Shown: piece by piece, positions 14,429-56,364 of the stretch
How positions within the stretch are numbered: the first letter of the stretch is position 1
Layout of the letters: every line of letters starts with the position of its first letter
Assembly: GCA_022072445.1 (NCBI GenBank)
Contig: JAJVHV010000003.1
Span: 197,204-261,203 of the forward strand
DNA length: 64,000 nucleotides
Source: Phycisphaerae bacterium
GTDB lineage: Bacteria; Planctomycetota; Phycisphaerae; UBA1845; Fen-1342
Reading direction: 5' to 3'
The notes under the pieces: generated by a model
Told to the model about the DNA's origin: nothing
What the model saw: the letters and a program-made list of their open reading frames with translations, nothing else
The model's database searches: none
Translations under genes and position numbers: made by a program

Positions 14429-14588
14429 CGGTCAAGCTGGATCGTTTGACTTCGGCTCGCTCATAGATGCCACCCGTCCTCCATTTTCGGCCAAGCTGCG
14501 TGCCACTCAATCGCACGGCGGCACTCGGCGTTCGGCGATGACAAGCGTATGATCGTAGTTCGATACGCAACCGCGCAGGAGGCCGCTC

Positions 14589-15923
14589 ATGCAGACCACG
14601 CTCGAGAAGACGTTCGCCGCCGAAATCGCCCAGCTTCACGAAACACGCACCTACAAGAAGGCCAACGAGCTCCAGGCGCCGCAGGCGCCGCGGACGCGGA
14701 TGGATGGGCGGCCGGTCATCAACCTGTCTTCGAATAACTACCTGGCGCTGGCGAACCACCCGAAGGTCGTCGCGGCGGCCAAGCTGGCGCTGGACAAGTT
14801 CGGGCTGGGGACAGCCAGCGTTCGCTTCATCTGCGGCACCATGACCTGCCACCTCGAGCTGGAGCGCAAGATCGCCCAGTTCATCGGCTGCGAGGCGAGC
14901 ACCACCTTCATCTCGTGCTGGGACGCCAACGTCGGCGTCATGCCGACGCTCTGCCCGACGCCGGAAGATGCGATCTTCTCCGATGCGCTGAACCACGCGT
15001 CGATCATCGACGCCATCCGCCTCAGCAAGGCGCAGCGCTTCATCTACAAGCATCGCAATCTGAAAGAGCTCGAGACAATGCTCAATTCGCCGGAGGCGAA
15101 GAAGTCGCGCAACCGGCTGATTATCACCGACGGCGTCTTCAGCATGGAAGGCGACATCGCCGACCTGCCGGCTCTCAAGGAGCTCGCGACGCGGCACGAC
15201 GCCCTGCTGGTGATCGACGAATCGCACGCCACCGGCGTGCTCGGCGCCACCGGCCGCGGCACCGCGGAGCATTTCGGCGTCCTCGGCGAGGGGACCCTCC
15301 AGATCAGCACGCTGGGCAAGGCGCTGGGCGGGGCGTGCGGCGGCTACGTGGCAGGCTCGCAGGTCGTGTGCGACTACCTGGTGCAGAAGGCCCGTCCGCA
15401 GCTCTTCTCGAACGCGCTGCCGCCGGCGGTGTGCTACGGCAGCATGGCGGCGATCGACGTGCTGATGGGGACGGCGACGGGTTCCCCATCGACGGGTTCC
15501 CCATCGACGGGGAGCATCGGCGTCCCGCCGGTATCCGGTAGCACCCGCGTCCCGCCGGTATCCGGTGGCATCGGCGTCCCGCCGGTCGAATCGGACTCCG
15601 GCCCCGCGCTGCTGGCACGTCTCCGCGACAACGTGGCGCACTTCCGCGCCGGAATGAAAGACCTCGGCCTCAAGACGCTCGAAGGCGTCACGCCGATCGT
15701 CCCGGTCATGGTCGGCGAGACGGCGACGGCGATCGCGATGCAGAAGGCGCTGCTGGAGCAGGGCGTGTTCGTCAGTGGCTTCGGCTACCCCGTGGTGCCC
15801 AAGGGCGAAGCCCGGCTGCGCTGCCAGGTCTCCGCCGGCCACACGCGCGACGACCTGAATCAATGCCTCGCGGCGTTTCGCACCGTCGCGGAGAAGTTCC
15901 CCGAGAGCTGCGGGAAGCACTGA
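14589..15923 (+). CDS. kbl: Glycine C-acetyltransferase-like (2-amino-3-ketobutyrate CoA ligase) with repeat insertion
   Basis: 444-residue PLP enzyme of the alpha-oxoamine synthase family. It is closest in appearance to KBL, which joins acetyl-CoA and glycine or runs the reverse step of threonine breakdown. Motifs: FSSNNYLALANHP-type entry (LSSNNYLALANHP), DALNHASIIDAIRLSK, VIDESHATGVLG and the PLP lysine at about 244 in STLGKALGGACGGYV. Normal KBL has about 395-400 residues; the excess is an insertion at about 298-335 encoded by short tandem repeats (see 15479-15592). No threonine dehydrogenase gene is adjacent, so the pathway is not confirmed. ATG 14589 follows GGAGG by 6 nt. Confidence 0.88.
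   Translation: MQTTLEKTFAAEIAQLHETRTYKKANELQAPQAPRTRMDGRPVINLSSNNYLALANHPKVVAAAKLALDKFGLGTASVRFICGTMTCHLELERKIAQFIGCEASTTFISCWDANVGVMPTLCPTPEDAIFSDALNHASIIDAIRLSKAQRFIYKHRNLKELETMLNSPEAKKSRNRLIITDGVFSMEGDIADLPALKELATRHDALLVIDESHATGVLGATGRGTAEHFGVLGEGTLQISTLGKALGGACGGYVAGSQVVCDYLVQKARPQLFSNALPPAVCYGSMAAIDVLMGTATGSPSTGSPSTGSIGVPPVSGSTRVPPVSGGIGVPPVESDSGPALLARLRDNVAHFRAGMKDLGLKTLEGVTPIVPVMVGETATAIAMQKALLEQGVFVSGFGYPVVPKGEARLRCQVSAGHTRDDLNQCLAAFRTVAEKFPESCGKH
15479..15592 (+). repeat. In-frame tandem repeats inserted in the kbl-like gene
   Basis: Two parts. A 15-nt unit beginning GTTCCCCATCGACGG occurs twice (about 15479-15511). A 27-nt unit, AGCATCGGCGTCCCGCC plus GGTATCCGGT, occurs at 15513-15539, 15540-15566 and partly at 15567-15592. 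The encoded peptide is a Gly/Ser/Pro repeat of the GVPPVSG type. The reverse strand reads TGGTPxPP, a pattern I know from short dispersed repeats in planctomycetes and cyanobacteria. The frame is preserved. Confidence 0.85.
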
Positions 15924-54920: not shown

Positions 54921-54959
54921 CGGGGTTCGTACTCAGCCCGGTTTGACGTGCTGCAACCT

Positions 54960-55931
54960 ATGCCGCCAGGATCAGCGACGCCCCTACCCAAAGCAATCGT
55001 CGGCATGATCCACGTCGGCGCGCTGCCCGGCACACCGCGCGCCGCGCGCTCGATCGCCGATCTCGCCCGCCGCGCCGTCGCCGACGCCCGCCTCCTCGCC
55101 GCCGCCGGCTTCGACGCCGCCATCGTCGAAAACATGCACGACCTGCCCTACCTCAACGGCGCCGTCGGCCCAGAAATCGTCGCCGCCATGACTGCCGTCT
55201 CGCAGCGCGTCCGCGACGCCTGCCCGCGGCTGCGCCTCGGCGTCCAGATTCTCGCGGCGGCGAATCGCGAGGCACTCGCCGTCGCCCTGGCTGCCGGCGC
55301 CGACTTCGTCCGCGTCGAGAACTTCGTCTTCGCCCACGTGGCCGACGAGGGCCTGATGCCGCAGGCCCACGCCGGCCCGCTCCTGCGCTACCGCCGAGCC
55401 ATCGCCGCCGACCACATTCAGATCGTGGCCGACCTCAAGAAAAAACATGCCAGCCACGCCCTCACCGCCGACCTGACCATCGCCGCCGCCAGCGCCGCCG
55501 CCCAGTTCGCCGGCGCCGACGCGATCGTCATCACCGGCGGCGCGACCGGCCAGCCTGCCGACGTCGACGACGTTGCCGACGCCCGCGCCGCGCTGCACGG
55601 CGAACTCACGCACGCGGCCGCAGCACTGCGCGAAGACCGCACCCGCGCACCCGCAGCGCAGCGCGGCGACCGCGCCCACGCAGCCCCGGCGATGCGCCGC
55701 GACCCCGCCCGCGCACCCGCCGCGACGCGCGGCGGCCCCGCCAACGTACCCGCCACTATTCCGCTCTACGTCGGTTCCGGCATCACCAGCGCCAACATCG
55801 CGCAGTTCTGGGACTTCGCCGACGGCTTCATCGTCGGCTCGTCGCTCAAACGCTCCGGCCACTGGTCCCAACCGCTCGACCCCCGCCGCCTCCGCACGTT
55901 CATGTCCGCCGTCACCCGCCTCCGCCGCTGA
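54960..55931 (+). CDS. BtpA/SgcQ family protein with internal repeat insertion
   Basis: 323-residue TIM-barrel protein of the BtpA (photosystem I biogenesis in cyanobacteria)/SgcQ type. Motifs: IVGMIHVGALPGTP, GFDAAIVENMHDLPYLNG, GADFVRVENFVFAHVADEG, IVADLKKKHASHAL and PLYVGSGITSANIAQF. Function in non-photosynthetic bacteria is unknown; it is often taken as an aldolase or phosphoribosyl-binding-like fold. Five 11-residue repeats (55590-55754) break the region before the GSGIT strand. GTG 54948 is an alternative start. Follows the Gfo/Idh/MocA gene by 39 nt. Confidence 0.85.
   Translation: MPPGSATPLPKAIVGMIHVGALPGTPRAARSIADLARRAVADARLLAAAGFDAAIVENMHDLPYLNGAVGPEIVAAMTAVSQRVRDACPRLRLGVQILAAANREALAVALAAGADFVRVENFVFAHVADEGLMPQAHAGPLLRYRRAIAADHIQIVADLKKKHASHALTADLTIAAASAAAQFAGADAIVITGGATGQPADVDDVADARAALHGELTHAAAALREDRTRAPAAQRGDRAHAAPAMRRDPARAPAATRGGPANVPATIPLYVGSGITSANIAQFWDFADGFIVGSSLKRSGHWSQPLDPRRLRTFMSAVTRLRR
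55590..55754 (+). repeat. Five in-frame 33-nt repeats inside the BtpA-like gene
   Basis: Units encode ALHGELTHAAA, ALREDRTRAPA, AQRGDRAHAAP, AMRRDPARAPA and ATRGGPANVPA. The repeat phase coincides with codons, keeping the enzyme in frame. Similarity is higher at the codon positions for Ala, Arg and Pro. Confidence 0.85.
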
Positions 55932-56364
55932 CGCGTGCAGGCTCGATCAACGCCGCCTCCTCCTGCGCGGATGTTGATGATGAATGTTGATGATGTAGCA
56001 CAACCGCCCTCGGCTGTGTTGAGCCTGTCGAGAGCAGCCGCCCCGGGCTGCGTCGCGTTTGTCGAGAGCAGCCGCCCCGGCTGCACTCCCATCCCCGCCC
56101 GCGTATCCCCACGCCGGTTGACCTCCGACGATATCCATCCGAACACGAAGCACCAGCATGCGCGCATTCTGCAACGGGCTGCACGCATCCTGCCCGCGAA
56201 GCGTCCCACAAAATCCGCCGAATTCGCTTGCCAAAAAAAAACCACCGGAGTTACTGTCAATGTATGCGACTCGTGGGGAGCATCGCATTCGGGCTGGTCG
56301 GCGCTGCGATCGCGGCGTGGTTGCCGGGGACGCCGTCGAAACACTGGTGTGTCTACGTGATTCC
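55932..56364. other. Intergenic region with clustered family B palindromes
   Basis: 433 nt. Family B related repeats run from 55997 to 56088: GCACAACCGCCCTCGGCTGTG, then two copies of GTCGAGAGCAGCCGCCCC. An A9 run lies at 56232-56240. GGAG at 56247-56250 precedes two overlapping ATGs (56260 and 56264); see the possible small ORF in findings. No RNA gene recognised. Confidence 0.6.

Follow-up and report, generated by a model that had tools for sequence, protein, structure and literature searches.

Tandem repeats within protein-coding sequences have been described in Bacteria, and many of them are found in surface or secreted proteins. Intragenic in-frame minisatellites of bacteria have a period that is a multiple of three, lie in a single gene, and encode a block of low complexity. 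The array that we studied shares these features, and it differs in that it is located in a barrel enzyme and its copies have strongly diverged. A second group of related systems consists of the intragenic REPs and the Rickettsia palindromic elements, in which repetitive DNA is tolerated in frame inside conserved proteins; intragenic REPs have been described, with the suggestion that they form flexible linkers or loops (PMC3733652). Our array differs from these elements, as its unit shows no excess of hairpin formation and dispersed copies of it were not found in our genome searches, which had limited sensitivity.

The window, that is, the whole stretch of 64,000 nucleotides of Phycisphaerae DNA analysed here, contains at 54948-55931 (plus strand) an open reading frame of 327 amino acid residues that encodes a TIM-barrel protein of the BtpA/SgcQ family and bears the repeats. 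The assignment to the family is based on the matches to PF03437 (E value of 3.1e-58; 197.7 bits with a cut-off of 30) and TIGR00259 (190 bits, above the cut-off of 153.4). The protein lies far under the NCBI equivalog for photosystem I biogenesis BtpA (NF045918), with a score of 175.8 bits versus the cut-off of 400. It agrees at each of the 41 columns without variation among 52 homologues, and where a column is conserved in 90% or more of them (79 columns), it always has the most common residue. The difference from the family is an additional segment of 53 residues between helix 6 and strand 7. A second BtpA paralogue in the same genome, 39% identical, is without the insert. A PDB sequence search with the protein gave only two weak matches, both to TrpA (E values of 0.47 and 0.48), and no paper that treats BtpA and the TIM barrel together turned up in the literature search.

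Tandem Repeats Finder (TRF) detected an array at 55586-55753 with a period of 33 nt, 5.1 copies, 74% matches, 0% indels, and a score of 133. In the frame of the gene, the array was read as five units of 11 residues on the plus strand: LHGELTHAAAA (55593-55625), LREDRTRAPAA (55626-55658), QRGDRAHAAPA (55659-55691), MRRDPARAPAA (55692-55724), and TRGGPANVPAT (55725-55757), whose final two codons correspond in the alignment to the native residues leading into strand 7. The first-pass annotation of the window had described five in-frame 11-residue repeats in a BtpA-like barrel gene, just ahead of a conserved strand. Both TRF and the reading of the frame bear out the array, and the insert does end shortly before strand 7. 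The position given for the repeats, 55590-55754, is off by 3 nt, as the units occupy 55593-55757 in the gene frame.

The periodicity was significant against codon shuffles. The self-identity of the array was 0.748 at a shift of 33 nt and 0.745 at a shift of 66 nt. In 20,000 codon shuffles of the same stretch, the mean at the shift of 33 nt was 0.397 and the maximum 0.545, and the observed value was never reached. The array also ranked first when the window of 64 kb was scanned for periods of 12-99 nt. With a 33-nt unit present in 5.1 copies, a period that is a multiple of 3, a single open frame, and no indels, the array has the tandem structure and the intact frame of an in-frame coding minisatellite and, taken alone, adds one more case to a type already described. 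Any two units agree at just 18-26 of 33 bases and 2-7 of 11 residues; thus, the array is probably old, and as the copies have diverged so strongly, it is probably no longer variable.

We then compared the locus with those of related genomes. Relative to 52 aligned homologues, the net insertion corresponds to residues 216-268 (53 residues; 55593-55751, plus strand) between helix 6 and strand 7: in the alignment of 53 sequences, residues 216-267 face no homologue residue, and residue 268 faces one. BtpA relatives were searched for in 61 genomes (the own genome, 26 of the same family, and 34 of the same order), 57 of which encode one. A contig scan supplied a second set, in which 80 of 132 loci were kept (53 titled Phycisphaer-). 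Together, 109 homologous loci were examined, 29 from the search of the 61 genomes and 80 from the scan; some of them have identical junctions and appear to be the same genome from two collections, so that the counts are not all independent. The block was absent from all 108 loci in which both flanks are present, and the remaining locus (L128) is truncated, which precludes a judgement. Between the two flanks, the 108 loci have a span of -4 to +5 residues, versus 52 in the window. The earlier statement that natural family members lack such a block is therefore upheld in 108 of the 109 loci, the truncated one giving no verdict, and the outcome that had been named as refuting, a block conserved across distant homologues, was looked for and not found.

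In addition, a query of 105 residues across the insert junction was run against the 27 genomes of the family. Four genomes gave a match at an E value of 0.001 or lower, the own genome in full and three others in part, and the insert was unmatched by this query in the 26 other genomes. Of the three partial matches, only that of G019 (protein residues 239-294) extends into the insert; it seemed at first to indicate a shared insert, but the left and right BtpA matches stand 3 nt apart in that genome; thus, it is without the insert. Judging from these sequence comparisons, the block is most likely private to this genome among the relatives compared.

The position of the insert in the fold was examined with an AlphaFold2 model built on the alignment (mean pLDDT of 83.7), which shows the full set of strands and helices expected of a TIM barrel. 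A Foldseek search found the barrels of PcrB, the tryptophan synthase alpha chain (TrpA), and ribulose-phosphate epimerase; normalised to the query length, the ten best matches had TM-scores of 0.44-0.50. The insert begins where the helix at residues 206-216 ends and extends to just ahead of strand 7 (residues 273-275 by DSSP on the model; 55764-55772, plus strand), which is followed by the invariant GSG (residues 276-278). Averaged over blocks of ten residues, pLDDT is 44-50 in residues 221-270, whereas the other blocks have values of 69-99 except the N-terminal one (46); for a sequence that has no homologues, such low confidence is weak evidence of disorder. The only helix predicted to lie wholly within the insert (residues 220-232) is likewise of low confidence. 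A long proline-free amphipathic helix, which is expected of 11-residue repeats of the hendecad or LEA type, was not found in the array, as proline occurs in units 2-5.

In TIM barrels, the C-terminal side of the strands usually forms the active-site face, and the loops from helix to strand are on the opposite face. In the model, each of the eight strands has invariant residues at its end or immediately behind it, among them H22, E61-D65, Q100, R122, D162, G197, T200, G276-G278, and G297-S298. The invariant residues of the family thus mostly come after strands, whereas the insert precedes strand 7. We argue from this place in the predicted fold that the inserted loop would stay outside the barrel. 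As 53 of the 327 residues are extra and are accommodated in a single helix-to-strand loop, the array amounts to a test, set by nature, of how much a loop of the TIM barrel tolerates.

The composition of the insert differs from that of the rest of the protein. In residues 217-268, 79% are alanine, proline, arginine, glycine, aspartate, or histidine (52% in the rest of the protein), and 8% are hydrophobic (31% in the rest). The GC content at codon position 2 is 0.74 in 55596-55754 versus 0.51 and 0.55 in the two flanking stretches. On average, two copies differ by about 31%, and the frame is open without any indel. Synonymous change was not in excess among the copies, with a pooled pS of 0.266 and a pN of 0.327, although the ten underlying comparisons cover 33 nt each and are not independent of one another, so that weak constraint may have gone undetected. 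The identity at the shift of 33 nt was also similar at the three codon positions (35, 31, and 35 of 45). This pattern fits an insert that is tolerated rather than kept for its sequence, within the limits of a small sample. No donor for an origin by duplication of native sequence was found next to the array: the 33 nt before unit 1 match the units at 16-19 of 33 positions, and the 33 nt after the array at 9-14 of 33.

We consider it probable that the block is a private, old, and decaying in-frame minisatellite tolerated in a permissive loop. The suggestion made at first reading, an inserted minisatellite tolerated in a surface loop, is thus supported by the 108 loci of 108 without the block, the location in a helix-to-strand loop, the barrel that is predicted to be intact, the mostly low confidence of the insert, and the absence of detectable constraint at the protein level. 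A GC-rich segment of 33 nt would have been gained in the loop ahead of strand 7 of the BtpA-family barrel and would then have been amplified in tandem, presumably by slippage or unequal recombination. It may have been kept because a unit of 33 nt, being divisible by three and free of stop codons in the gene frame, leaves the reading frame open, and because the helix-to-strand loops of TIM barrels generally face away from the active site. The units would have drifted afterwards through point changes without indels. The product would be a flexible loop rich in alanine, arginine, proline, and glycine, presumably disordered and neutral, with no necessary role, and the insert is probably harmless. 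Some points count against this explanation. A change of copy number, by which a live minisatellite is recognised, was not observed in the single genome of the genus that was analysed, and the first unit has no donor among the sequences compared. The open frame and the lack of indels at such a level of divergence are equally expected of a useful insert.

Among the alternatives, the one that survives best is that the block is not an independent minisatellite but the eroded scar of an in-frame invasion of this lineage by REP palindromes, associated repeats, and RAYT transposases. We regard it as unlikely, even though the same genome carries in-frame repeat peptides in ProRS, in a methionine-synthase-like gene, in an aminotransferase of the window, and in AlaRS, the last with two RAYT domains in addition. 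Two of the repeats belong to genome-wide families, the methionine-synthase-like gene includes one unit of a dispersed palindrome, and the inserts of AlaRS have minisatellites that adjoin REP-like peptides. The results for the array itself count against such a descent. A 23-nt core of the unit, with up to 3 mismatches, matched only unit 4 in the whole genome (1 match in the reversed control); this search would miss a diverged family, because four of the five units (1-3 and 5) escape it. With the whole array as the query, BLASTN found twelve other places at an E value below 0.01 in this GC-rich genome, each of 22-77 nt, the best being 31 nt long (E value of 7.5e-4). The array also folded no better than expected (z of -0.60; 53 of 200 shuffles folded at least as well), and its similarity to 70 repeat consensi from a sample of 400 kb was reached by 2 of 40 codon shuffles and 9 of 40 unit-permuted controls.

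The array as a REP-like element is thus not supported by folding, and dispersed copies were not found in searches of limited sensitivity. Nor is there clear support for a copy of another array, since the similarity to the 70 sampled consensi was not clearly above the controls. The weak genome matches L036, L038, L040, and L048 were also set aside: they are short GC-rich stretches, and L048 (71% over 108 nt; E value of 0.034) is itself repetitive. In a broader form of the same idea, to which we give a small chance, the block would be a late stage of a process throughout the bacterial family. Essential enzymes would receive repeats, REP palindromes, and complete RAYT transposase genes in frame at loops that permit it, and these elements would be translated as part of the enzyme. 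If true, this would be a niche like that of inteins, without splicing, in which the essentiality of the host gene shields the element, and minisatellites would be the remnant after decay.

It is quite improbable that the insert has taken on a role, for example in oligomer contact, partner binding, or localisation. The insert is rich in arginine, and the persistence of the frame noted above would suit a recruited segment. Against this stand its absence from the homologues examined, the lack of an excess of synonymous change, the mostly low model confidence, and the prolines of units 2-5, which speak against an extended 11-residue helix. An artefact, through misassembly or through low complexity that arose by chance in GC-rich coding sequence, is hardly credible: the assembly is in 50 contigs and the GC content of the sampled stretches is 67%, but the frame is intact, none of the 20,000 codon shuffles reached the periodicity, and the array is not a simple read duplication, because its copies differ from one another.

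In favour of the minisatellite tolerated in a permissive loop, the genome is rich in tandem arrays when compared with a relative of equal GC content (G023). With a TRF score of at least 100, 77 arrays were found in 1.2 Mb of the own genome and 34 in 1.2 Mb of G023. Insertions were compared in 181 reciprocal-best ORF pairs between the own sample plus the window and this one relative. Insertions of at least 12 residues numbered 40 in 25 genes in each of the two genomes. There were 9 insertions of at least 30 residues in the own genome (three of them in the ORF L169 and two in L162) versus 2 in G023, and 5 of 40 insertions overlapped a tandem array in the own genome versus 1 of 40 in G023. The five are in four ORFs, two of which are overlapping frames over one array in L153. 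Thus, the total number of insertions is not higher in the own genome, and the long and repeat-type insertions are, with small numbers and one relative.

The array in the BtpA-family gene led us to a genome and a bacterial family with large in-frame insertions in several conserved and often essential enzymes; some of the insertions contain transposase domains. The sole AlaRS gene found in the genome (L160, 8779-13836, minus strand, contig C11) is a single open frame of 1686 residues. Between the domains of AlaRS itself, this frame has two in-frame Y1_Tnp (RAYT) domains, and the inserts contain the REP-like peptides PSPDRKDGV and PLPHGRGS as well as minisatellites. Eighteen further stretches hold Y1_Tnp, most of them in long frames, and 15 were scanned (L216, L229, and L230 were left out). 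In 14 of the 15, Y1_Tnp occurs together with domains of a host enzyme: IleRS in six, PurH in five, GcvP in two, and ValRS in one, the enzyme names being assigned from the domains (the IleRS of L228 is a fragment placed by similarity). These 14 long frames, with Y1_Tnp inside the enzyme, are L213 and L214 in the own genome and L217-L228 in nine relatives; four of the 14 Y1_Tnp matches are under the Pfam cut-off in the domain scan and over it in the other Y1_Tnp search. The remaining stretch, L215, has Y1_Tnp alone. Including AlaRS, at least 15 such frames exist in 10 of the 27 genomes of the family, and the remaining Y1_Tnp matches are mostly in shorter frames. No paper on a RAYT inserted in an aminoacyl-tRNA synthetase turned up, which does not establish its absence from print.

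In the case of PurH, the profile match is continuous in six genomes (frames of 557-597 residues). In twelve other genomes, it is broken near 133 or 210, or both, inside one frame of 633-1131 residues, and in the remaining genomes PurH is absent or incomplete, lies where a contig ends, or is spread over two or more frames. This distribution suggests that the breaks near 133 and 210 are recurrent insertion sites. The RAYT sequences in the PurH of different genera look different from each other.

The insertions in these enzymes are far more surprising than the BtpA array, and a sequence link between the two was not found. They support the general idea of tolerated in-frame inserts in this genome rather than a common origin with the array. 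They raise the question of whether such insertions are translated within working enzymes, removed, or retained because the transposase still acts.

Shorter in-frame repeats were also observed in other enzymes of this genome. An aminotransferase gene of the window (14559-15920) has in-frame repeats of 15 nt and 27 nt (GSPST and GIGVPPVSG) at 15475-15586. The core of this repeat, ATCGGCGTCCCGCCGGT, has 40 matches in the genome with up to 1 mismatch (0 in the control), and 14 of them lie inside IleRS at a spacing of 42 nt. ProRS (L163, 8103-8198) contains an 18-nt in-frame PSNATQ repeat in 5.3 copies with 98% matches, followed by the peptide PSPDRKGGVS. The same peptide occurs in the methionine-synthase-like gene of L157, which has in-frame repeats and is incomplete, as its stretch ends within the gene. 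At 56000-56084 of the window, 3' of the BtpA-family gene, lies a copy of a palindromic repeat, CAGCCGAGGGCGGCTGT; the family of this repeat has 124 matches in the genome with up to 1 mismatch, versus 1 in the reversed control, and some of the matches are closely grouped.
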